The notes under the pieces: generated by a model
Database searches by the model: none
The model's input: the letters and a program-made list of their open reading frames with translations, nothing else
Told to the model about the DNA's origin: nothing
Shown here: positions 8,913-21,901 of the stretch, piece after piece
Layout of the letters: every line of letters starts with the position of its first letter
Numbering within the stretch: the first letter of the stretch is position 1
Made by a program: the position numbers and the translations under genes
Virus record (IMG/VR): IMGVR_UViG_3300042002_000093
Location: 1 to 25,275 of that record
Strand: one strand, 5' to 3'
Length of the DNA stretch: 25,275 nucleotides
Origin: a virus

Positions 8913-9278
8913 TTACCTGGTCCTAGTGGCGAGCATACCCGCCGCGAGCGCAAGGGCGGCAATCACGAGGAGCCATCCGATTACGGCGGAACCGGGATAG
9001 AGGAGCGCGATGACAACGGTGAAGGGGCCCGCGGCGAGCGCGTCGAGCCCGGCGACGGCGCCCGCTACCCACACCGACACGCACCATCCACAGTTGATGA
9101 GGATGGCGATGGGCCGGGTGATGCGGCGGCGGTCGGCGCGCTCGGTGACCCACACCCGGGGCGTCTCCGTGATGGAGTCGGTGGTGACGAGTTGTGTGAG
9201 CCGGGCGGCGGCGAAGGCGGCGAAGGTGAAGGCGATGGGGAACGCGAGGAGTTGCGCCCACAGCGGGAGTGCGGTCAT
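8913..9278 (-). CDS. DUF1360-like membrane protein
   Basis: A 121-residue integral membrane protein. It has a hydrophobic N-terminal segment (about 5-26), a conserved-looking ARLTQLVTTDSITETPR loop (25-41), a basic stretch (48-55), then CGWCVSVWVAG (63-73) leading into a second segment and a third at about 84-118. The R-T-D-R loop plus a CxWC-x-VW motif matches what I remember of DUF1360, found in phages and Gram-positive genomes with unknown role. It has no clear ribosome site: ATG 9278 lies 11 bases after a hairpin. TACGCT just upstream could be a -10 element giving a nearly leaderless transcript. It sits directly before the portal gene. Confidence 0.7.
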   Translation of the reverse strand: MTALPLWAQLLAFPIAFTFAAFAAARLTQLVTTDSITETPRVWVTERADRRRITRPIAILINCGWCVSVWVAGAVAGLDALAAGPFTVVIALLYPGSAVIGWLLVIAALALAAGMLATRTR

Positions 9279-9334: not shown

Positions 9335-9601
9335 TTACGCGAGTTCGTTGTGCTGTTCGCAGTAGCGCACCGCGTCGTCGTGGTTAAGGAACCACTTGGT
9401 GACGTTGTGGTCGATGTGGATGCCCTTGTGGAGCTCGACGCGGAACCCGTTGTCGATGGGGGTTTCGGACCACTTGGGGTGCATGAACAGGTGGATGATG
9501 TGGTAGTTGCCGGTGTCGCCGGTCGCGATGTCGGCGGGGCCGTCGTGGGTGATGGTGCGGGTGAAGTCCAGGGCGGTCATGAACTCGGTGTAGTGCGGCA
9601 T
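9335..9601 (-). CDS. unknown accessory protein, 88 residues
   Basis: I do not recognise this protein. It starts MPHYTEFMTALDFTRTITHD and is rich in His, Asp and aromatic residues (HIIHLFMHPKW, HKGIHIDH, CEQHNE), with mixed alpha/beta character and no membrane segment. ATG 9601 follows a promoter module and the ribosome site GGGAG. The gene forms a single-gene cassette with its own promoter and hairpin terminator. The upstream in-frame extension only translates the promoter and is rejected. Confidence 0.8.
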   Translation of the reverse strand: MPHYTEFMTALDFTRTITHDGPADIATGDTGNYHIIHLFMHPKWSETPIDNGFRVELHKGIHIDHNVTKWFLNHDDAVRYCEQHNELA

Positions 9602-9612
9602 TTTCGTACTCC

Positions 9613-9639
9613 CTTGTTTGCGTACGAGTATCGTATCAC
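9613..9639 (-). promoter_or_regulatory. 27-bp promoter/leader module for 9335-9601
   Basis: Reads GTGATACGAT, ACTCGTA, CGCAAACAAG on the minus strand: extended -10 TGATACGAT, 7-base spacer and the common leader box at the expected transcript start. The ribosome site GGGAG follows at once. A GTTCG-N7-CGAAC dyad (9643-9659) lies at the -35 position. Confidence 0.8.
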
Positions 9640-9660
9640 GCGGTTCGGGAGGCACGAACA

Positions 9661-9686
9661 CGGCCCCCCACCGAAGCGGGGGGCCG
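9661..9686 (-). terminator. hairpin terminator after 9702-9893
   Basis: 9-bp stem CGGCCCCCC / GGGGGGCCG with an 8-base loop, between the stop of the Pro-rich ORF and the next promoter module. Confidence 0.7.
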
Positions 9687-9701
9687 TTGTCTCATGTGCT
9701 G

Positions 9702-9893
9702 CTACTGGGTGCCGCTCCACCGGCCGGGAGCGCGGGTTTCGTTGCCGCGCGGCCCGAGTCGCGGGTCACCGAACGGCATTTCCCACGGTGAGAGCACTGG
9801 CGCTTTCGGCGGGTGCGGTTGGATGTCGGATGCCCGCAAGTTCGGGCGCGGCGCCTCCGGCGGCCGGATACCGGCGGTGTCGTCGCGTGTCAC
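9702..9893 (-). CDS. proline-rich small protein (second part of amber-split gene)
   Basis: A 63-residue Pro/Arg-rich ORF from GTG 9893: MTRDDTAGIRPPEAPRPN and onward, ending GRWSGTQ. It lies in the same frame as the upstream 35-residue ORF, separated only by TAG and three sense codons, and has the same Pro-rich composition. There is no good ribosome site ahead of the GTG, so it would be made by reinitiation after the TAG, by amber readthrough, or not at all if the TAG is a recent mutation or sequencing error. A hairpin terminator follows. Function unknown; likely disordered. Confidence 0.55.
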   Translation of the reverse strand: MTRDDTAGIRPPEAPRPNLRASDIQPHPPKAPVLSPWEMPFGDPRLGPRGNETRAPGRWSGTQ

Positions 9894-9902
9894 CAGCGGC
9901 GC

Positions 9903-10010
9903 CTACGGCTTCGGCTGGACGGGGTTCGACGGCGGCGGCTTCGGTCGGTCGGTGGGGCGTCCGGTGTCGGTGCCCGGCTTCGGGTGCGATCCTGCGCCAG
10001 CTCGATACAT
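9903..10010 (-). CDS. proline-rich 35-residue leader ORF (first part of amber-split gene)
   Basis: ORF from ATG 10010 reading MYRAGAGSHPKPGTDTGRP and ending PSNPVQPKP before TAG. The ribosome site GGGAG lies 6 bases upstream, right after a promoter module, so this is the start that ribosomes should use. A nearby ATG at 10015 in another frame is only one base from GGGAG. In-frame coding continues after the TAG (GTG 9893). The whole frame without the stop would be about 102 residues. Confidence 0.6.
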   Translation of the reverse strand: MYRAGAGSHPKPGTDTGRPTDRPKPPPSNPVQPKP

Positions 10011-10025
10011 TGCATACTCCCTTTT

Positions 10026-10052
10026 GTTGTTTGCGGTCATAAAACATATCAC
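10026..10052 (-). promoter_or_regulatory. promoter/leader module (divergent copy) for 9903-10010
   Basis: GTGATATGTT, TTATGAC, CGCAAACAAC on the minus strand. The -10 differs (TATGTT) and the last base of the box is C, but the 7-base spacing is kept. It abuts the hairpin that ends the upstream transcript. Confidence 0.65.
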
Positions 10053-10080
10053 GCGGGCGGTGCGGTGACGCACCGCCCGC
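10053..10080 (-). terminator. hairpin terminator after 10087-10416
   Basis: Perfect 11-bp stem GCGGGCGGTGC / GCACCGCCCGC with a 6-base loop, 6 bases after the stop codon and directly joined to the next promoter module. Confidence 0.75.
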
Positions 10081-10086
10081 GCCCGT

Positions 10087-10416
10087 TCACCTTGCGGCGA
10101 CGAGCGATCGAATGTGGCGCTTGGCGCGCTCGGAACGTTCGGCGTAGGGGAGCGTCATGGGGTGCCCGGGGGCGCCGGTGGTGTCGAAGATGTCGGGGAG
10201 TTCGGCGATGCGGGCGATGGTGCCGACCAGTGCTTGCACTTCGGCGGCGACGTGCTCGGTGAGCGCGGCGTCGGCGTACTCGATGACGGCGCGCTGTGCG
10301 CGGACGGCTTCGGCCCACAGGATGTCGGAGCCGGGGTTGCGGGTGCACGCGCGGACGGCGACGGGGAGGTAGTCGAGCGCGGCGGAGAACTCGGTATCGG
10401 TGGTGAGGGCGGCCAT
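10087..10416 (-). CDS. unknown accessory protein, 109 residues
   Basis: Not recognised. It begins MAALTTDTEFSAALDYLPVA and looks mainly helical and soluble; it ends with the basic stretch YAERSERAKRHIRSLVAAR. ATG 10416 follows the stop of the small membrane-protein gene by 9 bases, with GGAG spaced 6 bases away, so both are on one transcript from the module at 10604-10630. A terminator follows. Pairing of a one-segment membrane peptide with a small soluble helical protein is noted, but nothing shows that they interact. Confidence 0.75.
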   Translation of the reverse strand: MAALTTDTEFSAALDYLPVAVRACTRNPGSDILWAEAVRAQRAVIEYADAALTEHVAAEVQALVGTIARIAELPDIFDTTGAPGHPMTLPYAERSERAKRHIRSLVAAR

Positions 10417-10425
10417 GGCGGACTC

Positions 10426-10593
10426 CTAGCGGTTGCGGCCAGCGCGGCGGGTGACGGCGGCGGTAGCGATGATGACGGTGGCGGCGTAGGCGCCGATGAT
10501 GGCGAAGGCGGTGGGGTGGTCGGTGATCGCGCCGGGGATGGCGGCCACGAAGTCGAAGAGGTGGGACCACGTGGTGGTGATCGTGTCGAGCAT
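10426..10593 (-). CDS. small single-pass membrane protein, 55 residues
   Basis: ORF from ATG 10593 reading MLDTITTTWSHLFDFVAAIP and ending TRRAGRNR. A hydrophobic segment at about residues 27-47 (FAIIGAYAATVIIATAAV) is followed by a basic tail, which predicts one membrane span with the C terminus inside. The ribosome site GGGAGG is placed right behind a promoter module, the best support that it is real. It is the first gene of a two-gene cassette. A holin-like or membrane-anchoring role is possible but unsupported. Confidence 0.75.
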   Translation of the reverse strand: MLDTITTTWSHLFDFVAAIPGAITDHPTAFAIIGAYAATVIIATAAVTRRAGRNR

Positions 10594-10603
10594 GGGAACC
10601 TCC

Positions 10604-10630
10604 CTTGTTTGCGTATGGGTATCGTATCAC
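10604..10630 (-). promoter_or_regulatory. 27-bp promoter/leader module for 10426-10593
   Basis: GTGATACGAT, ACCCATA, CGCAAACAAG on the minus strand. The -35 position is occupied by the stem of the preceding hairpin, so the promoter must work through its extended -10. Confidence 0.8.
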
Positions 10631-10639
10631 AAGGGGTTA

Positions 10640-10660
10640 GGGGGCCGCGTACCGGCCCCC
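10640..10660 (-). terminator. hairpin terminator after 10674-12158
   Basis: 7-bp stem GGGGGCC / GGCCCCC with a 7-base loop, 13 bases after the stop of the Cys-rich protein gene and only 9 bases ahead of the next promoter module. Confidence 0.65.
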
Positions 10661-10673
10661 TCCGATCGGATCG

Positions 10674-12158
10674 CTACGACTTCAACAGCTTCGCGTCCTC
10701 GCACGGGTACGTGACGCCCGGGTGATCCGGGGCCACGAGCTTCACCAGCTTCGAGCACGCGGCGCACACGATGAAGTCGCCGCCGCCGATGCGGGCGTTG
10801 ATGGGCCGGTGGCGCTGGGCGATGGCGTCGAGCTTCGCGCGGTACTCCCGCGCGCAGTCCTCGCACTGGCCGAACGTGCACGAGCAATTCGGGTTCGACG
10901 CGATGGGCGCGAACGACGGGGCCTCCGCATCGGCGGCGGCGAGCGCGTCGGAGGCCATGGCGGCGCGGTCGGCGTCCTCACGGGCGGCCAGCGCGGCGGC
11001 GGCCGCGGCTTCGGCGCCGTGGCGCACACACGTGGTTTCGCCGGGCTCGGCGTCGGCGTAGCACGTGAACACGGTGCACTTTCCGGCGGCGGCCGCCGCG
11101 GCAAGGAACGTTCCCCACGCGTCGTCGGCGGCGAGCCGGTCGGCGGCGGCGCCCGTCTCTTCGAAGCGGTCGGCGGCCACCATGTATGCCTTGCGGGCGT
11201 CGTCGTAGGCGGGGAGCGGCGTGCCCTCGCCGTCGCCGTGCACGGTGGCCGTCCACCATGCGGCGCCCAAGCGGGTGTTGTGCTCGACGTGCTCGCCGCG
11301 CTTGATGCACGGGTAGCCGATGCCGTCGACAGTGGTGCGCTCGCCGCAAGCCGTGTCGTCGTCCTCGATGTCGTCGCGCAAGTCGTGCTCGGGGCAGTAG
11401 GCGCGGTAGGGGTCGGTGGTGTTCTCGCACCCGAAGATGAGGCACCGGTCAATGGCGTCGGCGGCGTCGCGGTACCGCTCGTAGGCGGCTTCGGCGGCCG
11501 CGTCGGCGGCGTCGTCGGTGACGGCCGCGGCGCGGTCGGCGGTGTACTTGGCTTCGCGGTAGGCGAGTTCGTAGGCGCGCTGGCGCTCGTGCTCGGTGGG
11601 CTCGGCGTCGGCGATGGGGTCCACCCATGCGCCGTCGCCGTCGGCGGCGTCGTGGTCGAAGAACTCGAAGGATTCCACGGTGTCGTAGGCGACTTGGCGG
11701 CGGCGTCCGGTGATGAAGGCAGCGACCATCGCGCCGTCGGTGCCGGTGCCCGCGATGGTGCCCGTGATGGTTTCGCCGCTCGACGTGTAGAGCTGGACAT
11801 CGGTTCCGGCCGGGAGCGCGGCGAGGGCGGTGGCGTAGGTGGGGGCGGCCGGGGCCGCGGGGGCGGCGTTCTTGGCGTCCTCGATGGCGCGGAGGGCGGC
11901 CCGCTCGCAGTTCTTGCACAGCTTGCGGCCGGTGGCTTCGCATGAGGCGCGGGCGTCTTCGAGGGCGGCGGTGAGGTCGGCATTGGCGGTGAGGATATTC
12001 ATGCGGTGGGCGGAGCGGGTGAGGGCGCTGCAAGCGCTGTTGGCGTAGTAGCCGACGACGCCGGTGGTGGCGGAGTTGTCGGTGGCGGGGCCGGTGGTGC
12101 GCTCGGGGATGCCTTGGATGTGGGTGGTGGCCCGGGTGGCACAGATGATGTACGGCAT
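10674..12158 (-). CDS. large Cys-rich accessory protein with repeated C4-C10-C2-H fingers
   Basis: A 494-residue protein of unknown family, the largest of the accessory block. It has several probable metal sites: C73, C81, C84; C239-C244-C255-H258; C271, C284, H290, H293; C361-C366-C377-H380; C425, C427, C432, C435; and C465, C468, C486. The second and fourth have exactly the same C-x4-C-x10-C-x2-H spacing and a shared CxxF core (CLIFGC and CTVFTC), so they look like copies of one finger. Ala/Asp-rich helices separate them. A beta-rich segment spans about 115-168. ATG 12158 follows a promoter module and AGAGG. A nucleic-acid or protein-binding scaffold is inferred from the fingers only. Confidence 0.8.
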   Translation of the reverse strand: MPYIICATRATTHIQGIPERTTGPATDNSATTGVVGYYANSACSALTRSAHRMNILTANADLTAALEDARASCEATGRKLCKNCERAALRAIEDAKNAAPAAPAAPTYATALAALPAGTDVQLYTSSGETITGTIAGTGTDGAMVAAFITGRRRQVAYDTVESFEFFDHDAADGDGAWVDPIADAEPTEHERQRAYELAYREAKYTADRAAAVTDDAADAAAEAAYERYRDAADAIDRCLIFGCENTTDPYRAYCPEHDLRDDIEDDDTACGERTTVDGIGYPCIKRGEHVEHNTRLGAAWWTATVHGDGEGTPLPAYDDARKAYMVAADRFEETGAAADRLAADDAWGTFLAAAAAAGKCTVFTCYADAEPGETTCVRHGAEAAAAAALAAREDADRAAMASDALAAADAEAPSFAPIASNPNCSCTFGQCEDCAREYRAKLDAIAQRHRPINARIGGGDFIVCAACSKLVKLVAPDHPGVTYPCEDAKLLKS

Positions 12159-12172
12159 GGCCTAACCTCTTT

Positions 12173-12199
12173 CTTGTTTGCGTACTAGTACTGTAACAC
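12173..12199 (-). promoter_or_regulatory. 27-bp promoter/leader module for 10674-12158
   Basis: GTGTTACAGT, ACTAGTA, CGCAAACAAG on the minus strand, with the -10 variant TACAGT. The ribosome site AGAGG follows the box. Confidence 0.78.
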
Positions 12200-12219
12200 A
12201 CTGGGTTGAGGGCATGGCA

Positions 12220-12249
12220 CCGGCCCCCCACCATACGGTGGGGGGCCGG
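12220..12249 (-). terminator. hairpin terminator after 12261-12875
   Basis: Perfect 13-bp stem CCGGCCCCCCACC / GGTGGGGGGCCGG with a 4-base ATAC loop, ending the four-gene cassette that starts at 14478. Confidence 0.75.
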
Positions 12250-12260
12250 ATGTCCAGGGC

Positions 12261-12875
12261 TTACGCCGCGGCCACGAGCCACGCCCGAGCCGCGGCGCGG
12301 CGCCGCTCGATGCGCTCGCGCTGGCGGTTCGCGAGGGCCCGCCACTCGCGGCCGGAGCGCCGGAGCCGTTCGGGGAGCGGGGCGGCGTAGGCGGCGTAGT
12401 CGTATCCCACCAGGCGCCCGTCACGGCGGGCGCCGTTGAGTATCCCGGCGAGGAGCACGGTGCCCTCCTCGATGCGCTGTTCGATGGCCGAGTTGCGGGC
12501 GGCGTCGGCGTGGCCGTCGCGGGCGATGTCGGTGAGCGCGTCGGCAAGCTCGCCGACGGTGCTGAGGAGCCGCCACGTTCCGGCTCCGTTGGCGGTGGCG
12601 AGGTTCGAGCGGATGGCGCCGATGTGTCGCCACGCGGTGATCGCGTCGGCGTCGGCGGCGGCGAGGTGGCCGATGGAGCGCGCGCCGCGCGGGTACTCGT
12701 GGAACAGGCGGTAGTAGCGGAGACCGCCGGAGCCGAGCGGCCAGCGCGCGGCGGAGGCGATGAGGTCGGCGATGTAGGCGTGGTCGTGGCCGCGCTGTGC
12801 CAGGAGCGCGCGTTCGGCGTCGGTGACGCCGAGCGTGGCGAGTCGGGCGAACTGTGCGGAGGTGGGGAACCTCAT
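12261..12875 (-). CDS. unknown accessory protein, 204 residues, basic C terminus
   Basis: Not recognised. It starts MRFPTSAQFARLATLGVTDA and is mostly helical; the end (about 165-204) is strongly basic with many Arg (RLRRSGREW, NRQRERIERRRAAARAW) and could bind nucleic acid. It has no Cys cluster or membrane segment. ATG 12875 has AAGGA upstream, 17 bases after the preceding stop. It is the last gene of a four-gene cassette driven by the module at 14494-14520, followed by a strong hairpin. Confidence 0.75.
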   Translation of the reverse strand: MRFPTSAQFARLATLGVTDAERALLAQRGHDHAYIADLIASAARWPLGSGGLRYYRLFHEYPRGARSIGHLAAADADAITAWRHIGAIRSNLATANGAGTWRLLSTVGELADALTDIARDGHADAARNSAIEQRIEEGTVLLAGILNGARRDGRLVGYDYAAYAAPLPERLRRSGREWRALANRQRERIERRRAAARAWLVAAA

Positions 12876-12892
12876 GGGTGTGTCCTTACTGG

Positions 12893-13258
12893 CTAGAGGG
12901 CGTTGAGGTGGATAAGGGTGTAGCGGAGGCGTTCGAGTTGGTTGTCAGCGTCGGCGAAGCGGCGCCGGATGTCATCGAGGCGTTCGGGGGCGATGGTGAT
13001 GGAGTCGAAGGTGGACGCGGTGGTGAGCGCGTCGCGGAGCCGTACGTGGTCGGTGACGGCGCGCGGGAGCGCTTTGAGTGCGTGCTCGGCGTGCATCCGC
13101 TCGGCCGGGTCGGTGAGGACGGCGGCGGCGGCCACGAGGTCGGCGTAGATGTCATCGGCGACGGCTTTGATGGGCAACGCGATGGCGTCGAGCACGCCGC
13201 CGGAGGGCGGGAGCCGGTCGGCGGCCGCGGCGGCGCGGATGTAGTGGTTCACGAGCAT
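12893..13258 (-). CDS. unknown accessory protein, 121 residues
   Basis: Not recognised. It starts MLVNHYIRAAAAADRLPPSG and appears all-helical, with a charged C-terminal half (APERLDDIRRRFADADNQLE) that may form a coiled coil. ATG 13258 follows GGAAGG at a suitable distance and comes after an intercistronic hairpin (13278-13304) with no promoter module. It is therefore probably expressed by read-through from upstream or from a processed message. Confidence 0.75.
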   Translation of the reverse strand: MLVNHYIRAAAAADRLPPSGGVLDAIALPIKAVADDIYADLVAAAAVLTDPAERMHAEHALKALPRAVTDHVRLRDALTTASTFDSITIAPERLDDIRRRFADADNQLERLRYTLIHLNAL

Positions 13259-13277
13259 GTGGTGTTCCTTCCGTTCG

Positions 13278-13304
13278 GGGCCCGGCGCGGGATGCGCCGG
13301 GCCC
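13278..13304 (-). terminator. intercistronic hairpin between 13312-13947 and 12893-13258
   Basis: Perfect 11-bp stem GGGCCCGGCGC / GCGCCGGGCCC with a 5-base loop, just after a stop codon. No promoter follows before the next gene, so it is either a leaky terminator or an mRNA end-protecting/processing hairpin. Confidence 0.6.
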
Positions 13305-13311
13305 TGGTGGG

Positions 13312-13947
13312 CTACTTGGGGTCGGTGACGCCGAGGAGTTCGGCGAGCTGTTCGAGGGGGACGCGGGCGGGCGCGCCATCGCTGTATGAGTCGTAGGTGA
13401 ACCCGGAATCGGCCCCGAACCGGGCTTGCCACGCGGTGAGTGCCTGGTCGTAAACGCCGCGGAGGCGTTCGCGCTCGGCGCGCTGGTGTTCGCGCTCGGC
13501 GGCTTCGGCGGCCTCACGCCGGTCGTAGGCGGCCACGACGGGGCGCCAGCGGCCGTGAAGCTGGCGCGGTTCGATGACGGTGAGGCGCGCCCCGCCGGGG
13601 GTTTCCTTCGCGAGCGCGGCCACGGTCTCGGGGGTGAGGGTGTGGGGGTCGTCCAGGCAGGAGAACCACAGTGCCATTTCATCGGCGGAGTGGTCGCGCT
13701 TGTCGGTGTCGTAGGTGGATTCGGCGACAAAGGCGAGGAGTCCCCACCACTGGGAGTCGTACGACCCCCCGCCGCGGCGGCCGGGCCGGGTGGCCTCCGT
13801 GCGCTTCCACGTGTGGGTGTTGTTGAAGCGGTGCACGGAGTGCTCCCACAGTGTGGAGGTGTCGAGCACGATGGCGGCGCGGTAGCCGCCGGAGGCGCCC
13901 GCGCGGTAGGCGAGGAGTTCGCCGGTCTTGATTTCCTTGCGTTGCAT
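13312..13947 (-). CDS. unknown accessory protein with central coiled coil, 211 residues
   Basis: Not firmly recognised. It starts MQRKEIKTGELLAYRAGASG, a short beta-rich N-terminal domain with YRAAIVLDT, then an Arg/Gly-rich loop, a segment with SQWWGLLAF, and a charged helix at about 150-180 (RREAAEAAEREHQRAERER) that is a likely coiled coil. The opening KEIKxGxxYAY-type pattern resembles small uncharacterised actinophage proteins. ATG 13947 has GAGAGGA upstream. It lies second in the cassette, between two intercistronic hairpins. The start at 13983 is rejected because it has no ribosome site and reads into the hairpin. Confidence 0.75.
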   Translation of the reverse strand: MQRKEIKTGELLAYRAGASGGYRAAIVLDTSTLWEHSVHRFNNTHTWKRTEATRPGRRGGGSYDSQWWGLLAFVAESTYDTDKRDHSADEMALWFSCLDDPHTLTPETVAALAKETPGGARLTVIEPRQLHGRWRPVVAAYDRREAAEAAEREHQRAERERLRGVYDQALTAWQARFGADSGFTYDSYSDGAPARVPLEQLAELLGVTDPK

Positions 13948-13967
13948 GGTGATCCTCTCGGGTAGGT

Positions 13968-13997
13968 GGCCGGGCGCCCCCATCGTTGCGCCCGGCC
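13968..13997 (-). terminator. intercistronic hairpin between 14008-14478 and 13312-13947
   Basis: Perfect 10-bp stem GGCCGGGCGC / GCGCCCGGCC with a 10-base loop after the stop of the first cassette gene. It has no T-tract and no promoter follows it. Confidence 0.55.
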
Positions 13998-14007
13998 GGG
14001 TGCGGGT

Positions 14008-14478
14008 TTAGGCGGCGAGCGCGAGCATGTGGCGCTCGACTTCGGCCAGCTCGGCGTTGAGCTGTTCGAGTTCGTCTTGGCGGGCGGCGAGGGTGCGGTA
14101 TTCGGTGAGGTCGGTGGCGTCCAGGAGGGCGCGGGCGGCGGCGACGCGTTCGAGGGCGCGGGCCATGGCGCGCTTGTAGTAGTCGGTGGCGTCGATGCGG
14201 GCGGCGGCGCTCGCGGCGCGGGAGACTCGCGCCTTGGCGACGGCGGCGGCGCCGGGGATGAGGGCGTAGGAGCCGCGGGTGATGACCTCGCGCACTTCGT
14301 TGCCCCAGCGGTCGCGGGCGCCGGTGATGCGCCAGGCGATGAACCACACGCGGCCTTCGCCGGGGTCGGTGGTCACGTCGGCGATGACGCGGCGGCCGGA
14401 GTTGGGGGTGGCGAAGTAGGTGCGCGTCCAGGAGTGGGGGCGGTCGGTGGCTTTCCAGGGCTTCGCGGTCGCGATCAT
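14008..14478 (-). CDS. unknown accessory protein, 156 residues, C-terminal coiled coil
   Basis: Not recognised. It starts MIATAKPWKATDRPHSWTRT. The N-terminal part (about 20-75) looks like a small beta domain (RRVIADVTTD, GRVWFIAWRI, EVITRGSYALIP). The C-terminal half is helical and ends with heptad-like RQDELEQLNAELAEVERHML, a good coiled-coil candidate. ATG 14478 follows a promoter module with TGGAG about 9 bases upstream. First gene of a four-gene cassette. It diverges from the plus-strand gene at 14605. Confidence 0.78.
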   Translation of the reverse strand: MIATAKPWKATDRPHSWTRTYFATPNSGRRVIADVTTDPGEGRVWFIAWRITGARDRWGNEVREVITRGSYALIPGAAAVAKARVSRAASAAARIDATDYYKRAMARALERVAAARALLDATDLTEYRTLAARQDELEQLNAELAEVERHMLALAA

Positions 14479-14493
14479 CGTGGCGGCTCCATT

Positions 14494-14520
14494 CTTGTTT
14501 GCGTTTGAATAGCGTATCAC
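14494..14520 (-). promoter_or_regulatory. 27-bp promoter/leader module for 14008-14478
   Basis: GTGATACGCT, ATTCAAA, CGCAAACAAG on the minus strand, 14 bases behind the ATG. It is back-to-back with the plus-strand module at 14565-14591; about 44 bases separate them. Confidence 0.78.
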
Positions 14521-14564
14521 GGGGGAGGTGAGGGGGCGCACCGGGGGTCCGTCGACCGGAAGGC

Positions 14565-14591
14565 GTGTTACGCTAGCCTCACGCAAACAAG
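14565..14591 (+). promoter_or_regulatory. 27-bp promoter/leader module on plus strand for 14605-14931
   Basis: GTGTTACGCT, AGCCTCA, CGCAAACAAG, then GAGAGG and an ATG at 14605. It is the mirror-oriented copy of the leftward modules and shows that the element moves with the gene it serves and not with the operon. Confidence 0.8.
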
Positions 14592-14604
14592 AGAGGTTCC
14601 ATCG

Positions 14605-14931
14605 ATGAAGGTCTCATTTCACCAAGGCCCCAACGGTGTCGGCGTCGCCACCTACAACACCGACTGGCACGAGCGCGACGGCGTGCGGTTCTACCGCTCC
14701 ATCGCCGTCGAGCGCCACTTCACCCGCACACCGATGATGCGGCGCGAGGTGAGCATGTACCGCATCGTTGTCACCGAGCACCGCGCCGACGGCACCGCGC
14801 GCACCATCCGGCCCGGATACGGCATCCACACGTTCGCCGACGCGCTCGACGCGCTCGGCGCCGAGCTGCAAGCCGCCATCCGCGACGGGCTCGCCGCCAA
14901 GTCCGACTTGGAACGCCTCCCCATCGCGTAA
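14605..14931 (+). CDS. unknown rightward accessory protein, 108 residues
   Basis: One of only two plus-strand genes. It starts MKVSFHQGPNGVGVATYNTD and appears alpha/beta: beta-rich first half (GVRFYRSIAVERHF, MYRIVVTEHRADG) and a helical end (DALDALGAELQAAIRDGL). Not recognised. Support for being real is a promoter module, a good ribosome site (AGAGG) and a strong terminator downstream. It runs toward the leftward gene ending at 15069, and two facing terminators separate them. The opposite-strand ORFs here are shadows. Confidence 0.8.
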   Translation: MKVSFHQGPNGVGVATYNTDWHERDGVRFYRSIAVERHFTRTPMMRREVSMYRIVVTEHRADGTARTIRPGYGIHTFADALDALGAELQAAIRDGLAAKSDLERLPIA

Positions 14932-14953
14932 GATCACCGGCGGTAATCGACGC

Positions 14954-14989
14954 CGAAGGGGCCCCGGAGCACAAGCCGGGGCCCCTTCG
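14954..14989 (+). terminator. terminator of plus-strand gene 14605-14931
   Basis: Perfect 14-bp stem CGAAGGGGCCCCGG / CCGGGGCCCCTTCG with an 8-base loop, 22 bases after the stop. Confidence 0.75.
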
Positions 14990-15030
14990 CTGTGCCCGCC
15001 AGCGCGGCCGTGGAGGGCCGTGCACGGCGA

Positions 15031-15059
15031 AGCGCCCCCGGGGATATCCCGGGGGCGCT
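15031..15059 (-). terminator. hairpin terminator after 15069-15764
   Basis: Perfect 12-bp stem AGCGCCCCCGGG / CCCGGGGGCGCT with a 5-base loop, facing the plus-strand terminator at 14954-14989. Confidence 0.75.
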
Positions 15060-15068
15060 GGCGGTGTC

Positions 15069-15764
15069 TTAGAGGGTGACTCCGGCGCTTTCGAGGGCGT
15101 CGAGCCACCGGCGGTATGCGGCGCGCTCGCGGGCGTCGGATGAGGTGTTGTAAGCGCACGCCCACAAGCGGTCCACGGTGAAGTCCGCGAGCTGTTCGCG
15201 GGTGCCGGTGATGCGGAGGGAGCCGCGGGCGCCGCCGGGGGCGGTGTGGAGGCCGTCGAGCGCGTCGGTGTCGGCGATGATGTCGCGGAGGGCGGCGGGG
15301 AACGTGACGGTGACGGTGGGTTCGGCGTCCACGGGCGCGGGCTCCTCTTCGACGGCGGTGGTCGTGGGGCGGGGGAACTCGCCGTGAAGGTAGCGGACCC
15401 ACAGCGCCCACGCGGCGGTGTCGGCGTCGGCGTTGCCCATGCCCTCGCGGCGGAAGGTGTCGCACAGCGTGGAGTAGGTGGTGGGGTCGGCGCCGTCGTG
15501 GTCGGCGAGGGCGTGCACGAGGGCGATGCGCTCGGGGGTGGCGGTGTCGGCCGGGGCTTCGGTGCCGACCTCCGGGGCGTAGTTGAGCGAGTAGTGGAGT
15601 TCGAGGGCGCCATACATGGCGGGGTCGTGCTCGGCGAGGGCTTCGATGGCGGCGCGGAGCTGTGCTTTGTTCATCGTGGAGCGGCGGTTGATGTGGGCGG
15701 CGGTGGCGAGGCGGTAGAGGTCGGCGCGGGTGAGGGCTTCGAGGTTCATGGCGGTCGCGTTCAT
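15069..15764 (-). CDS. accessory protein with N-terminal SAP/Rho-N-like module (paralogue of 16250-16957)
   Basis: A 231-residue protein. Residues about 6-61 (from MNLEALTRADLYRLATAAHI) form a helix-extended-helix module of the SAP/Rho N-terminal type, with the conserved-looking MNKAQLRAAIEAL. By hand alignment 37 of 56 residues are identical to the start of the gene at 16250-16957. The remaining part differs: an acidic, Pro-rich linker (about 130-150) and a C-terminal domain with beta-rich VTVTFPAALRD and a helical end. ATG 15764 is preferred since GAAGGAG is 6 bases upstream; ATG 15749 is the alternative that aligns with the paralogue. Such modules often bind nucleic acid. Function unknown. 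Confidence 0.8.
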   Translation of the reverse strand: MNATAMNLEALTRADLYRLATAAHINRRSTMNKAQLRAAIEALAEHDPAMYGALELHYSLNYAPEVGTEAPADTATPERIALVHALADHDGADPTTYSTLCDTFRREGMGNADADTAAWALWVRYLHGEFPRPTTTAVEEEPAPVDAEPTVTVTFPAALRDIIADTDALDGLHTAPGGARGSLRITGTREQLADFTVDRLWACAYNTSSDARERAAYRRWLDALESAGVTL

Positions 15765-15778
15765 GGTTTTGCTCCTTC

Positions 15779-15805
15779 GTTGTTTGCGTACGAGTATCGT
15801 ATCAC
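15779..15805 (-). promoter_or_regulatory. 27-bp promoter/leader module for 15069-15764
   Basis: GTGATACGAT, ACTCGTA, CGCAAACAAC on the minus strand; the first 26 bases are identical to the modules at 9613 and 16971. The ribosome site GAAGGAG follows. Confidence 0.8.
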
Positions 15806-15819
15806 GGTCGAATCAGGGT

Positions 15820-15840
15820 GCCCGCCGGGGGGGGTCGGGC
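15820..15840 (-). terminator. weak hairpin after 15851-16189
   Basis: A short stem GCCCG / CGGGC around a G-rich loop, 10 bases after the stop and just ahead of the next promoter module. Its place matches the other terminators but the stem is only 5 bp. Confidence 0.35.
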
Positions 15841-15850
15841 GAACCGCGCC

Positions 15851-16189
15851 TCAGTCGTCCCCGAGGTGGTCGGGGTGGCCCGCGTTGTGCCGGGGGTGCC
15901 AGTACCAACCGCGGACGCGCCGGAGCGGGTCGGCGCGGTATTTCAGGTGCCCGTCATGGTGCGTGAAGGTCCGCTCGAAGCGCACCGCCGCACGCTTGGC
16001 GTGCGCCGCGCTCGTGTAGTCGGCGAACTTATACGCCATCGCAGAGGGCCGCGTGCCAGCGCGGCGGACGCGGAGGCTCGCGCCGTTGCCGTAGTCGATG
16101 ATGGAGTATGTCCAATCGCGGGTGGTGGCGACGGTGGCGAGTCCGGCGGTGGCCCATTCGATGGGGTCGGGTGTGTCGTGGTGTTCCAC
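15851..16189 (-). CDS. unknown accessory protein, 112 residues, His-rich C terminus
   Basis: Not recognised. It begins at GTG 16189 (MEHHDTPDPIEWATAGLATV) with AAAGGA about 8 bases upstream. The middle has WTYSIIDYGNGASLRVRR and AYKFADYTSAAHAKRAAVRF, suggesting a small alpha/beta fold that is basic overall. The C terminus is rich in His, Trp and Arg (GWYWHPRHNAGHPDHLGDD) and could bind metal. It lies after an intercistronic hairpin with no own promoter module, so it would depend on the transcript of 16250-16957. Confidence 0.72.
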   Translation of the reverse strand: MEHHDTPDPIEWATAGLATVATTRDWTYSIIDYGNGASLRVRRAGTRPSAMAYKFADYTSAAHAKRAAVRFERTFTHHDGHLKYRADPLRRVRGWYWHPRHNAGHPDHLGDD

Positions 16190-16213
16190 GGTGATGTCCT
16201 TTCATGTCGCGTG

Positions 16214-16242
16214 CGGCCGGGCCCCTTCGCGGGGCCCGGCCG
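16214..16242 (-). terminator. intercistronic hairpin between 16250-16957 and 15851-16189
   Basis: Perfect 12-bp stem CGGCCGGGCCCC / GGGGCCCGGCCG with a 5-base TTCGC loop, 7 bases after a stop codon. No promoter follows before the next gene. Confidence 0.6.
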
Positions 16243-16249
16243 GTGGTGG

Positions 16250-16957
16250 CTACTTGCCGTTGTCGATGACCACGACGTTGCGGGAGAACCCGCCATCGGT
16301 GCGTGAGCCGGTGCGGTCGCTCGGGATGGTGTTGCGCGACGGCTCGGGGATGGAGACGCGCACGAGCCCGACATAGAACCCCTTGCGGGCGTTGGTGGCG
16401 CGGGCCCGCGCCGGGTCCTGCGCGCTGGATTCGTTGAACCATCCGATGATCCTCGAATCGGGGTCGTCGGATTCGAGGATGGCCCACGCGTAGCCGTACT
16501 TGGTTTCGAGGTACTTGGCGGCCACGAGGTTGCCGTCAAGGTCGAACAGCGCGTGATAGTCCCACGTCCATCCGCGATCGGCGAGGGTCGCGAGGTGGTG
16601 GTAGCGGTTCGCCATCTGATTCGCGGCCCACTGCGACAGGAAACCATCGGTGTCGGAGCGCTCCTCGGATTCGATGCGGCGCGCGTGGCACTCGCGGGCC
16701 CGGCCGCGCCAGTATTCGGCGCTTTCGGTGTCGGGCGTCAACGGGTGGGCGTCGGCCGGGTCGGCGGCGGGCTCGGTGTCGGCGGTGGTGTTGAGCGTGT
16801 GCGCGAGTTCGAGCGCGGCGAACATGCCCGGGTCGGTGGTTTCGAGCGCTTCGATGGCGGCGATGAGCTGGGCTTTGTTCATGGCCGAGCGGCGGCGGAT
16901 GCGGGCGGTGGTGGCGAGGGTGTACAGCTCGGGCCGGGTGAGTTCGTGAAGGTTCAT
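16250..16957 (-). CDS. accessory protein with N-terminal SAP/Rho-N-like module (paralogue of 15069-15764)
   Basis: A 235-residue protein. Residues 1-56 (MNLHELTRPELYTLATTARI, then RRRSAMNKAQLIAAIEAL) are the same helix-extended-helix module as in the protein at 15069-15764. The rest is unrelated to that paralogue: an acidic linker (about 57-80), a helical part with EYWRGRARECHARRIESEER, and a C-terminal domain with LFDLDGNLVAAKYLETKYG, SRIIGWFNE and VGLVRVSIPEP that looks beta-rich. Not recognised. ATG 16957 follows a promoter module; GGGAT is a modest ribosome site. A shared head with different tails suggests a common docking or nucleic-acid-binding module. Confidence 0.8.
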   Translation of the reverse strand: MNLHELTRPELYTLATTARIRRRSAMNKAQLIAAIEALETTDPGMFAALELAHTLNTTADTEPAADPADAHPLTPDTESAEYWRGRARECHARRIESEERSDTDGFLSQWAANQMANRYHHLATLADRGWTWDYHALFDLDGNLVAAKYLETKYGYAWAILESDDPDSRIIGWFNESSAQDPARARATNARKGFYVGLVRVSIPEPSRNTIPSDRTGSRTDGGFSRNVVVIDNGK

Positions 16958-16970
16958 TTCAACATCCCAT

Positions 16971-16997
16971 CTTGTTTGCGTACGAGTATCGTATCAC
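16971..16997 (-). promoter_or_regulatory. 27-bp promoter/leader module for 16250-16957
   Basis: GTGATACGAT, ACTCGTA, CGCAAACAAG on the minus strand, identical to the module at 9613. It is also preceded by a related GTTC/GAAC dyad at 17001-17017, at the same distance as in the 9613 copy. Confidence 0.8.
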
Positions 16998-17018
16998 GAC
17001 GTTCGGAGGGCATGAACA

Positions 17019-17052
17019 GGGGCCCCCACCTTCACGACTCGGCGGGGGCCCC
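17019..17052 (-). terminator. hairpin terminator after 17070-17861
   Basis: Perfect 9-bp stem GGGGCCCCC / GGGGGCCCC with a 16-base loop, 17 bases after the stop and just ahead of the next promoter. Confidence 0.7.
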
Positions 17053-17069
17053 GTCTCGGGAGGCAAGCT

Positions 17070-17861
17070 CTACACGGTGCCCGTCATGGTGCGGCGCGCG
17101 GCGTAGCTGGCGGCCGCTGTGCGCCGGTCGCGGGCGAAGGCGGCGGCCATGTCCGCGCGGGCGCGGTCCAAGCGCGTCGCCAGCGCGGTCATGATGTCGT
17201 CGGCGACGGCGGCCGCGTCGTCGCCGATGGGGGCGGCGAGCGCGCACCGATGGCGCATGTAGTGCGGGAGCGCCACGAGGAACGCGGTGTAGGCGGCGGG
17301 GGCGAGCCGGGCGACGCCGTAGCGGGTGTCGGCGCCGTCGGCGACGGCGGCGGCGCGGTGGACGTTGCCGAGCGCGTCACCGGCGCCGGTGAAGGCGCCC
17401 ACGAGGCCGCGGTGCGCGGACTCGGTGTCGTCGAGCGCCGACAGGAGCCCGATGGATTCGGGGTAGAGCGTGATGATGGCGAGGTGCGCGTCGAAGCGCT
17501 GGACATCGCACGCGGCGAGGTAGCGGTCACGCGCGGAGAGCACGGTGTCAGCGCGGGTGATGGCGTCGCCGTAGCGGGTGAGCGCGGCGCGCATGGCGTC
17601 GGCGTAGTCGCCGTGGTTGGCCGGGTCGGTGCGGCGGGTGTGCATCCGGTCGATGAAGTGCTTTTCGATGACGGTGAGGGCGGCGTCCAGCTGGGCGTCG
17701 GTCATGGCCTCGTGCTCGTGGCGTCCGCTGGTGGCGGGGCCGTCGGTGGTACGGGCGTTCTGGGTGCGCACGATGGAGGTGAACTCGCGGCGGAGGGCGG
17801 CGCCGTCGTCGTCGTGGCGGTCGGCGAGTCGGACGGTGGGCGCGGGTCGGCTTGCGGTCAT
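17070..17861 (-). CDS. accessory protein, 263 residues (paralogue of 17872-18822)
   Basis: Not recognised as a known family. It starts MTASRPAPTVRLADRHDDDG and is mainly helical and Ala-rich, with no membrane segment. A block YPESIGLLSALDDTESAH (133-150) matches YPGAAPLLSVLDDIEDAY (130-147) of the upstream gene at 10 of about 20 positions and the same place in the chain, so the two are probably diverged duplicates. ATG 17861 lies 10 bases after the upstream stop, with only a weak ribosome site (AAGTAGG), so translation may be coupled. A terminator follows. The longer ORF reaching 18038 is a shadow. Confidence 0.75.
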   Translation of the reverse strand: MTASRPAPTVRLADRHDDDGAALRREFTSIVRTQNARTTDGPATSGRHEHEAMTDAQLDAALTVIEKHFIDRMHTRRTDPANHGDYADAMRAALTRYGDAITRADTVLSARDRYLAACDVQRFDAHLAIITLYPESIGLLSALDDTESAHRGLVGAFTGAGDALGNVHRAAAVADGADTRYGVARLAPAAYTAFLVALPHYMRHRCALAAPIGDDAAAVADDIMTALATRLDRARADMAAAFARDRRTAAASYAARRTMTGTV

Positions 17862-17871
17862 GTCGGGTTGC

Positions 17872-18822
17872 CTACTTTCGGTTGGGTTCGCGGATGAGGA
17901 TCGTGAGGCCGTCGGCCTTGACGGTGGTGCCGAAGGCGAGGACACGGGCGGCGGCAACGCTTTCGGGGTCGGCTCCCTTCTTTTCGAGGACTTCGGCGGC
18001 GGCCGCGCGGGCGCTGTCCAGGTCGGGGAACTCGGCATAGGAGGGTTTGTTCAGCGTCTTGTAGCGCGTGTACGCGTTGCCGTATCCGCGGGCGTTGCGT
18101 TCGGCGTCGGTGGTGGCCGGGATGACCACGAGCGCGACGGGGCCGGTGTGCGCGGCCGGGGCGAGGTAGTCGCGGGCGAGAATCGCACGGGCGGTGTCGA
18201 GGCTGTCGGAGGCTTCGGCGAGTTCGGTGGCGCGGTCGGAGACATCGAGGGTGATGGACAGGAGCGTCCGGTGGTGGACGCTGGCGAGGTAGGTGCCGAA
18301 GGCGTCGCCGACGGTGCCGCCGAACATGGCGGTGAGTGCGTTGATGGTCCGCGCGAGGCGTTCGGCTCCGGCGCCGGAGGCGTAGGCGTCTTCGATGTCG
18401 TCCAGGACCGACAGGAGCGGGGCGGCGCCGGGGTAGGTGACCAGTGTGCCGATGTAGGCGGCGGCCCGGCCGGTGGCGCTGGTGGCGAGTACGGCGGCGC
18501 GCCGGTTGTCGTGGAGGTTGGCCGCGATGGCGGCTCCGGCGTGGCGGTGGTACTCGTTCACCGACCAGGCGAGAGCGTCGTGGAACTTCGCCTCCACACC
18601 CCGGCGCGCAACGGTGTCGGGGGCGATGCGTGCGAGTGATTCGATGATGCGTTCGAGGGCGCCACGGCGGTCGGCTTCGGTGTCGTATCGGTTGGTGTGG
18701 GTCGGGGCGAGGCGCCCGGGGTGGGCGTCGCGCATTCCCTCGTGGGCGATGTCCTGGATTTCGATGAACAGCGCTTCGACGGCCATGTGTGCGGCCGGGG
18801 TGAGCTGGTCGGTGTCGCTCAT
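17872..18822 (-). CDS. accessory protein, 316 residues (paralogue of 17070-17861)
   Basis: Starts MSDTDQLTPAAHMAVEALFI. The first 230 residues are helical, with the YPGAAPLLSVLDDIEDAY block shared with the next gene. The C-terminal part after about residue 235 is different: ALVVIPATTDAERNARGYGN, a segment YAEFPDLDSARAAAAEVLEKKG resembling a small alpha/beta unit, and a beta-rich end (VLAFGTTVKADGLTILIRE). Not recognised. It is first in a two-gene cassette, with ATG 18822 after a promoter module and GGGAGG. It is the first gene after the terminase. Confidence 0.76.
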   Translation of the reverse strand: MSDTDQLTPAAHMAVEALFIEIQDIAHEGMRDAHPGRLAPTHTNRYDTEADRRGALERIIESLARIAPDTVARRGVEAKFHDALAWSVNEYHRHAGAAIAANLHDNRRAAVLATSATGRAAAYIGTLVTYPGAAPLLSVLDDIEDAYASGAGAERLARTINALTAMFGGTVGDAFGTYLASVHHRTLLSITLDVSDRATELAEASDSLDTARAILARDYLAPAAHTGPVALVVIPATTDAERNARGYGNAYTRYKTLNKPSYAEFPDLDSARAAAAEVLEKKGADPESVAAARVLAFGTTVKADGLTILIREPNRK

Positions 18823-18834
18823 TGGTGAGCCTCC

Positions 18835-18861
18835 CTTGTTTGCGGACGTATATCGTAACAC
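18835..18861 (-). promoter_or_regulatory. 27-bp promoter/leader module for 17872-18822
   Basis: GTGTTACGAT, ATACGTC, CGCAAACAAG on the minus strand, followed by GGGAGG. A GGTTC-ACG-GAACC dyad (18872-18884) lies upstream between the terminase stop and the promoter. No strong terminator separates it from the terminase gene. Confidence 0.8.
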
Positions 18862-18889
18862 GACGCTGGTGGGTTCCGTGAACCGGCCC

Positions 18890-20524
18890 TCACCCGAGCG
18901 GGGACAGCCCTTGCCGTGGCAGGCGGGCACCGCGCGAGGGCCGCGAGGCCGCGGCCGGGGCGCCCCCGGCGGCATCGATCCAATAGGCCATGACCACGGC
19001 GTCCCCGTAGTCCGGGCTCCGGCCGAGCCGCTTGATGAGGTCTTCCTTTTTCTCCATACGGAGCTTCGGCGGGATGCCCGTGAGCGGTTCCAGCATCTTC
19101 GGCGTGGTGAGGTCGGCGGTGAGCTGTTCGTGCGGCGGGAGCATGATGGCGGCGCCGGTGTCGGGGTTCAACAGCTCGCGGAGGTGCCAGTAGGCGGCCG
19201 TGCGGGTGTTCGCGAACCCGAACGAGCGGTCACCGGTGCGGCGCTTCGTGGACGCCGACCCGGTGTACTTGATGACGCGGTAGCCGAGTTCATCGAGCCG
19301 CGAGGCCACACCCGACCCCACCCCGATCATGTCGACGGCCACCGGCGCCGACTTCACCTCCGCCTTGCGCACCGTGTTCTGTACCTTCGCCGTCACCCCC
19401 ATCACGGAGTTCCCTTGCGTGTAGACGAGTTCGACGGTGTGCACGCCGACGCGGCGCGCGATCACGGAGGCGTCGGCGCCGGTCGTCGCCACGTCCACGC
19501 CGTACGACGGGAGGCCGTCGGCCACCGGGCTCCCGAGCGCGGCCCACGCCGCGAACGCCTCGTGACCGGTCGGCACGTCGGCGACGGACTTGGGGCGCCC
19601 GGCCGCGCGCCAGGCGTGCCAGCGCTCCATAGCCGCCTCCACCCACGACAACGGGATGATCGCGTTCTCATCATCGGCGGCGAAGTCGCCTTCCACCTGT
19701 TGGCGGTACAGCGCCGAGTCGGTGCCCCAGTACTGCGCGCGGCGCTCGACGGACGCGAGGGACACGCGCCCGGCGGCCACGGCGTCGGACTTCGTGACGT
19801 GCACGGCGCGCCACCCCGCAACGCGGCCCTGGTGAATCTGGTAGAACCGCCCGGCCGGGGGGCCCGGGGTGGAGAGCGCGAGCACGTATTGGCCGTCTTC
19901 GCCGGTGAGCGAGCCTTCGAGCGCGTCGAATATCGAGTCGGGCACCGACTTCGCTTCATCGATGATGATGAGTAGCTGGTCGGCGTGCGCGGATTCGATC
20001 ATGTCGGGGTTGCGGGCGACGGCGGCGAACGCGGAGCCGTGCGGGAGCTGGATGGCCGCGGTGAGGAGTTCCCGTTCGGGCCGGAGCGGGAGGTAGAGGC
20101 CGCCGACGCGGGGCGCCCACTTGTGGACTTCGGGCCACAGCGCCCGGTAGAGGTGCCGGAACACGCCCGCCGTCGTCAGAATCTTCCAGTCCTGGCCGAG
20201 CGCTTCGCGGGTGCGCGCGAACCAATGCACCGCGGCGCTCGCAATGGTCGTCTTGCCCATGCCGCGGGGGCCGCGGACGGCGGCGCGGCCGTGCTCGGCG
20301 AGCGCGTCGAGCACGTCGAGTTGGTAGGCGGCGAACTCGCGGCCGGGCGGCATGGTGATGCACTCGCGACAGAACGCCGACGGGCGCGCGGCGTACAGCT
20401 CGTGGCGCTCGCGGGAGGCGGCGCCGCGGACGGCGGCCGCGCGCGCTTCGAGGTCGGCGAGGAGTTGCAACCGGCCGAGCTGGGAGCGCGCGAGTTCGAG
20501 GCGCCTATGGAGTGTCTGTTCCAT
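18890..20524 (-). CDS. terL: terminase large subunit
   Basis: A 544-residue DNA-packaging motor. The ATPase part has Walker A GPRGMGKTT (85-93), Walker B LLIIIDE (184-190) with its catalytic Glu, and a following STPGPP segment (218-223) in the place of the coupling motif. The RNase H-like nuclease part has GVDVATTGADASV (342-354) with D344, VAVDMIGVGSG (395-405) with D398, and SPDYGDAVVMAYW (503-515) with D506 and D509, a full set of acidic residues. I start it at ATG 20524, which overlaps the small subunit gene by 20 bases; the 34-residue longer start is a shadow. It is separated from the portal by about 10 kb of accessory genes, which is unusual. Confidence 0.93.
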   Translation of the reverse strand: MEQTLHRRLELARSQLGRLQLLADLEARAAAVRGAASRERHELYAARPSAFCRECITMPPGREFAAYQLDVLDALAEHGRAAVRGPRGMGKTTIASAAVHWFARTREALGQDWKILTTAGVFRHLYRALWPEVHKWAPRVGGLYLPLRPERELLTAAIQLPHGSAFAAVARNPDMIESAHADQLLIIIDEAKSVPDSIFDALEGSLTGEDGQYVLALSTPGPPAGRFYQIHQGRVAGWRAVHVTKSDAVAAGRVSLASVERRAQYWGTDSALYRQQVEGDFAADDENAIIPLSWVEAAMERWHAWRAAGRPKSVADVPTGHEAFAAWAALGSPVADGLPSYGVDVATTGADASVIARRVGVHTVELVYTQGNSVMGVTAKVQNTVRKAEVKSAPVAVDMIGVGSGVASRLDELGYRVIKYTGSASTKRRTGDRSFGFANTRTAAYWHLRELLNPDTGAAIMLPPHEQLTADLTTPKMLEPLTGIPPKLRMEKKEDLIKRLGRSPDYGDAVVMAYWIDAAGGAPAAASRPSRGARLPRQGLSPLG

Positions 20525-21120: not shown

Positions 21121-21147
21121 GTGTTACGGTACTAGCGCGCAAACAAG
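21121..21147 (+). promoter_or_regulatory. 27-bp promoter/leader module on plus strand for 21161-21301
   Basis: GTGTTACGGT, ACTAGCG, CGCAAACAAG, then AGAGGAG and ATG 21161. Second rightward copy, divergent from the terminase promoter region. Confidence 0.8.
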
Positions 21148-21874: not shown

Positions 21875-21901
21875 TATGTTTGGGGGACTTCATCGTATCA
21901 C
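21875..21901 (-). promoter_or_regulatory. promoter/leader module (degenerate box) for 21415-21858
   Basis: GTGATACGAT, GAAGTCC, CCCAAACATA on the minus strand. The -10 is perfect while the leader box is only partly kept (CCAAACA). The -10 hexamer overlaps the stop codon of the preceding gene. Confidence 0.65.

Follow-up and report, generated by a model that had tools for sequence, protein, structure and literature searches.

A modular, putatively zinc-binding phage protein whose N-terminal domain also heads a phiC31-type repressor

We describe a viral protein of 494 residues, built of separate Cys/His modules, in which modules have been duplicated and shuffled among related viruses, the presumed metal ligands are conserved, and the N-terminal domain is common to a phiC31-type repressor and to other fusion proteins. 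Its gene, preceded by a promoter-like element of its own, lies in the record IMGVR_UViG_3300042002_000093, the whole of which (25,275 bases) was analysed and is called the window. Multi-zinc mosaic accessory proteins are a known kind in actinophages; the modular family described here is undescribed in the libraries searched. A first-pass annotation had pictured a multi-finger scaffold in a single-gene cassette, with an internal duplication, several further Cys clusters and no known family; the duplication, scaffold build, cassette and lack of a known family all stood, whereas the clusters proposed at residues 73-84 and 465-486 did not stand as proposed.

The gene, its virus and searches for known families

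The gene is read from 12158 to 10674 (Table 1), and the start codon at 12158 is backed by alignment of the N terminus with those of relatives. Portal and terminase genes of phage type are present in the window; megablast of the window against 50,697 phage records gave no match, and its portal finds its best-covered match, 34% identical, in Actinoplanes phage phiAsp2. The single-domain relatives treated below point to Streptomyces-type actinobacteria as the probable host group. Cysteine makes up 4.0% of the residues, the highest share among 25 window open reading frames measured (next, 2.5%). The protein is also acidic (pI 4.7, net -31; relatives pI 4.8-5.4), but acidic proteins are numerous in this phage, a capsid-region protein among them (net charge per 100 residues -6.7, as against -6.3 for the 494-residue protein), so this acidity is not special.

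As first supposed, no annotated family accounts for the protein: whole-protein searches of Pfam, PHROGs, NCBIfam and PADLOC gave no match, and the isolated fingers, for which a remote homology search had been suggested, had no Pfam match at E 10. Among the 50,697 phage records, tblastn with the finger modules matched none, and the C-terminal modules gave chance-level matches only. Sequence searches of the PDB with the N-terminal and finger profiles returned chance-level or no matches, and a PDB fold search with the C-terminal model returned generic helical matches only (best E 3, Z under 7). The classical zf-C2H2 family was considered, but the spacing does not fit it (C-x4-C-x10-C-x2-H, not C-x2-4-C-x12-H-x3-5-H), and homology between the finger and a C2H2-type module was not established. 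Finger 1 of the window protein and finger 2 of the relative L067 are weakly like the N-terminal finger of HNH endonucleases (phrog_144; E 0.038-0.11), both matching one stretch of it at positions about 18-47; a search of the window record for the HNH catalytic domain gave no phrog_144 match at E 0.01, and the HNH protein of phiC31 has CxxC where the window fingers have CxxxxC.

Table 1. Position and basis of the features described
Feature	Position	Strand	Basis
Gene of the 494-residue modular, putative zinc-finger protein	10674..12158	minus	Open reading frame and translation; four full-length relatives in viral contigs
Putative N-terminal zinc domain, residues 1-97, candidate ligands H13, C43, C81, C84	11868..12158	minus	Conservation; AlphaFold2
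Predicted Sm/Hfq-like small beta-barrel, helix and five strands, residues 104-168	11655..11849	minus	AlphaFold2, pLDDT about 81-95; Foldseek; VIA-align
Predicted helical hairpin 1, residues 189-236	11451..11594	minus	AlphaFold2 helices H4-28, H31-51 (numbering of 186-494), pLDDT 74-85
Finger 1, residues 239-258, C239-x4-C244-x10-C255-x2-H258	11385..11444	minus	Spacing pattern and ligand conservation
C271-x12-C284-x5-H290-x2-H293 module, residues 271-293	11280..11348	minus	Invariant in five relatives; also in L011
Predicted helical hairpin 2, residues 316-358	11085..11213	minus	AlphaFold2 helices H131-150, H153-173 (numbering of 186-494), pLDDT 70-81
Finger 2, residues 361-380, C361-x4-C366-x10-C377-x2-H380	11019..11078	minus	Spacing pattern and ligand conservation
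CxC-x4-CxxC group, residues 425-435	10854..10886	minus	L002 at 74% identity over 23 residues; absent from L010
CxxC...H479...C486 group, residues 465-486, C-terminal	10701..10766	minus	Window only; AlphaFold2 confidence low
Promoter-like element GTGTTACAGTACTAGTACGCAAACA, 16 bases before the start codon of the 494-residue gene	12175..12199	minus	10 window copies; 19-copy alignment
Element copies in the window	9615-9639, 10028-10052, 10606-10630, 12175-12199, 14496-14520, 15781-15805, 16973-16997, 18837-18861	minus	
Element copies in the window	14565-14589, 21121-21145	plus	
G+C-rich hairpin GGCCCCCCACC-GTAT-GGTGGGGGGCC, end of upstream gene	12222..12247	minus	Visible in the sequence itself
Full-length relatives in viral contigs: L002/L009, 593 residues; L010, 571; L067, 672; L069, 641			
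Repressor-family loci with swapped heads	L004 3998-6031; L071 1075-3126; L072 310-2631; L073 1022-2386		

Twin fingers and their duplication

Both fingers noted in the first pass are real. Shuffling the residues of the protein 20,000 times produced at least one match to C-x4-C-x10-C-x2-H in 12 cases and two matches in none, and the spacing is identical in four relatives (L002, L010, L067 and L069), of which L067 carries three hairpin-finger units spaced as in the window protein. The CxxF core is found in both fingers, and the duplication to which it had been taken to point proved larger than the fingers themselves, taking in the helices ahead of each. Locally aligned with each other, the two modules of the window protein scored above 498 of 500 shuffles and those of L009 and L010 above 500 of 500 each; the many alanines of the region make these shuffles a rough test. 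An AlphaFold2 model of residues 186-494 places a helix pair before each finger, followed by C54 and C176 of the model (pLDDT about 70-85), and the repeated unit, as predicted, is a finger headed by a helical hairpin.

Across five aligned sequences, none of the 12 ligand positions of finger 1, the C271 module and finger 2 varies, as against 23% invariance in the remaining ungapped columns (hypergeometric P about 7e-8). Such constancy in divergent relatives shows the three sites to be under selection; their ligands would presumably bind zinc.

The remaining Cys/His groups fared unequally. The group proposed at 271-293 is confirmed as C271/C284/H290/H293. That at 425-435 is kept in L002 and in no other relative, with only related CxxC groups in L067 and L069, while the one at 465-486 is private to the window virus (no convincing counterpart in relatives, best E 0.08), as is C6. 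In the group at 73-84, C81 and C84 are conserved and C73 is not, being a gap or Ala in all other sequences; the real set is H13/C43/C81/C84.

Mosaic build among relatives

Finger 1 stands ahead of the barrel in L010 and behind it in the window protein, and the C-terminal part of L002, L010, L067 and L069 is missing from the window protein; the missing domain pair was not found elsewhere in the window. By these alignments the protein is a mosaic whose modules have been duplicated, rearranged and exchanged among related viruses. Such duplication (two or three copies) and reordering are typical of interaction scaffolds rather than of enzymes.

The zinc-finger gene is present in 5/5 viruses of the group. 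In the window, L002 and L067 the portal gene follows shortly after it, the neighbourhood in L010 being comparable, and a homologue of window gene 12261-12875 precedes it in L002, L010 and L067. A small protein of probable membrane type (ARLTQLVTTDSI...ILINCGWCVSVWV) is encoded just before the portal in the window (8913-9278, minus), L002 (2451-2825) and L067 (5181-5540).

The N-terminal domain and its link to a repressor

Six residues of the N-terminal domain (H13, G16, C43, R48, C81 and C84) are invariant in the 28 aligned sequences, which belong to one family, and AlphaFold2 models residues 1-97 with pLDDT mostly 87-98 and a low loop at 21-40. A profile of these residues matched 56 loci in viruses and a single one in a Streptomyces genome. 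Judged by its matches, this H-C-CxxC domain is an undescribed, widespread family of Streptomyces-type actinophages, which occurs as a lone protein of 82-83 residues (L043 type) and also fused ahead of many unlike C-terminal parts. Hypothetical proteins of Streptomyces phages (Gibson gp97 and its relatives in Rooney, ShakeNBake, Dryad and Wentworth; 236-259 residues) carry it at 40-45% identity, and differ from the window protein in an unlike second half without C-x4-C-x10-C-x2-H fingers; the best BFVD match, A0A411AY56 (236 residues, E 4e-7), equals Gibson gp97 in length.

In Streptomyces phage Shawty, gp22 begins with this domain and continues into a phiC31-type repressor (PF25746, Phage_Repressor_c; E 1.8e-132, 442 bits). 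The N-terminal H-C-CxxC domains of gp22 and the window protein are 40% identical, and Foldseek aligned 200 columns of the predicted structure of gp22 with the window protein. The window protein has no such repressor domain: a Pfam search of it at E 1 did not return the C-terminal PF25746 domain. A PF25746 search of the five records of the virus group also gave no match, a negative of little weight since the control genomes likewise gave none. The phiC31 repressor has a different H-C-CxxC head in this slot (VHYSTT...ACGG...VTCKRC) and TG1 a further one; a profile comparison of the window family with the phiC31-type domain aligned the CxxC end alone, at a probability of 9%, and so did not establish homology. 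What the window-type and phiC31 heads have in common is their slot and their ligand pattern. Within the phiC31-type repressor family, unlike H-C-CxxC or H...CxxC heads are swapped between phages ahead of a common repressor part (Table 1).

The domain is slightly basic in the window protein (net +2), and a pI of 9.3 was computed for one lone version. In L061 it is followed by a phrog_5855 domain, which in window gene 16250-16957 is preceded by a weak Rho_N/SAP-like N terminus; the domain thus fills slots of candidate nucleic-acid-binding heads, with which its conserved arginines R9, R48 and R78 fit. That window gene and 15069-15764 (both minus) have a common Rho_N/SAP-like N terminus (LTRxELYxLATxA...RRSxMNKAQLxAAIEAL) and unlike C-terminal parts, phrog_5855 ending the former. 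Genes judged by eye to be thyX-like, deaminase-like or recombinase-like lie near the domain in L043, L048 and L061, and in Shawty the gene that carries it lies between those for a dNMP kinase and a Cas4 exonuclease; these surroundings are early-type.

A predicted small beta-barrel

Residues 104-168 are predicted to adopt an Sm-like fold, for which membership of Hfq is not claimed. The best Foldseek matches are to Hfq (E 0.018, rmsd 1.0 over 47 columns), and VIA-align gave Z 7.1-7.4 for Hfq and 7.8 for YaeO, values under 8 and hence below the level that excludes a common arrangement, many unrelated small barrels fitting too. The barrel (residues about 107-176) matched no Pfam family at E 10. 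It differs from Hfq in having AYDT in place of the Y-K-H motif, and from Sm/Hfq-like barrels in being acidic (net -9) and embedded in a multi-zinc chain. Among the loci compared, its sequence occurs in the window, L002 and L010 only, and not in L067 or L069.

A promoter-like element specific to the virus group

The pattern GTGWTACGNTAN6CGCAAACA lies upstream of ten open reading frame starts in the window, on both strands, against 0 expected. An alignment of nineteen copies, drawn from five viruses, has fourteen invariant columns, and the core TGnTAnnnT corresponds to the extended -10 pattern; a scan for two-hexamer promoters found nothing. The element probably combines an extended -10 promoter with a leader and would act as a promoter. 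A copy stands before the 494-residue gene, which agrees with its earlier description as a single-gene cassette. Across 2.9 million viral contigs (IMG/VR), the exact pattern was found only in four contigs encoding relatives, and therefore marks an undescribed phage group. A short conserved motif before gene starts is known from another phage group, the start-associated sequences of cluster K mycobacteriophages (PMC12699233): the placement of the cluster K sequence GGGATAGGAGCCC and of the window's GTGATACGNTAN6CGCAAACA is alike, but the sequences differ and, unlike the cluster K motif, the window element looks like an extended -10 promoter with a leader. The hairpin at the end of the upstream gene is possibly a terminator without a T-run; a terminator scan did not list it.

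Two copies of the element (14496-14520 and 14565-14589) lie back to back and serve the divergent genes 14008-14478 (minus) and 14605-14931 (plus). Such a pair, about 50-80 bases apart, is kept in three relatives (L010 near 1295/1375, L068 near 471/537, L069 near 3576/3643). A degenerate copy, GTGATACGATGAAGTCCCCCAAACA, at 21877-21901 (minus) shares bases with the end of one gene and closely precedes the start of the following one (21858), and a similar copy occurs in L090 near 15735. Roughly twelve small accessory genes, many of them preceded by a promoter-like element of their own, fill the interval between terminase and portal (9335-18890), which is an unusual location for genes of this kind.

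Possible functions

The protein may have an undescribed function, plausibly in gene control or host takeover. We tentatively favour, at somewhat less than even confidence, a non-structural interaction scaffold in which the head would contact nucleic acid or the machinery that acts on it, and the acidic arms would hold proteins. The gene, with an extended -10-type promoter of its own, would yield an accessory chain of beads on a string; the weakly basic N-terminal H-C-CxxC domain would dock on nucleic acid or on the transcription or replication machinery, and the Sm-like barrel and acidic hairpin-finger arms would then engage at least one protein of the host or the phage. The acidity of the whole protein (pI 4.7, net -31) makes it less likely that the finger part simply binds DNA or RNA. 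Against the scaffold reading, the gene sits between terminase and portal, in the structural block.

Alternatively, the acidic arms may mimic a defence or regulatory protein of the host or attach to one, for instance as a nucleic-acid mimic, in host takeover or anti-defence, and the shuffling would then record an arms race. Strong acidity, rapid shuffling with a swapped C terminus among close relatives, and a moron-like cassette with its own promoter element all speak for this; yet PADLOC gave no match of note, acidity is common in the proteins of this phage, and the zinc sites are conserved rather than changing, and we regard it as unlikely.

Less likely still is a virion-associated or packaging accessory protein, as its location between terminase and portal, shortly before the portal in three viruses and in a comparable neighbourhood in L010, might suggest: the gene has its own promoter-like element, apart from the structural block, and its N-terminal domain is found elsewhere among early-type genes or on a repressor. 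Several zinc-type Cys sites would also be unusual for virion proteins.

A bolder version of the scaffold, to which we give a lower rating again, is a new class of phage multi-zinc scaffold in which a repressor-type docking head, an Sm/Hfq-like barrel and a variable number of hairpin-finger arms would serve, where the host lacks Hfq, as an adaptor for RNA or for the transcription complex. Lowest of all we place an RNA-binding regulator with the barrel as its working part, an RNA chaperone for a host group without Hfq: the predicted helix and five-strand barrel has Hfq as its best Foldseek matches, and an Hfq orthologue is reported to be absent from Streptomyces (PMC11678152), but the barrel is missing in L067 and L069, has AYDT for Y-K-H and net -9, and is without a Pfam match, and its Z under 8 fits many unrelated small barrels. 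Equally improbable is that the protein is a mosaic of small zinc modules drifting neutrally, with no one role conserved; the unlike C termini of window and relatives and the varying module order agree with this, but the ligand invariance (P about 7e-8) and the presence of the gene in 5/5 viruses do not.

Significance

The analysis defines an undescribed family of putative zinc modules under selection in actinophages, and identifies a mobile N-terminal domain, presumably zinc-binding, that heads a phiC31-type repressor. The predicted hairpin-finger module, which varies in copy number, is small and open to direct test; the promoter-like element specific to the virus group offers a handle on the timing of gene expression. 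It is the link between head and repressor, together with the copy-number-variable hairpin-finger unit, that gives the finding above-average interest.
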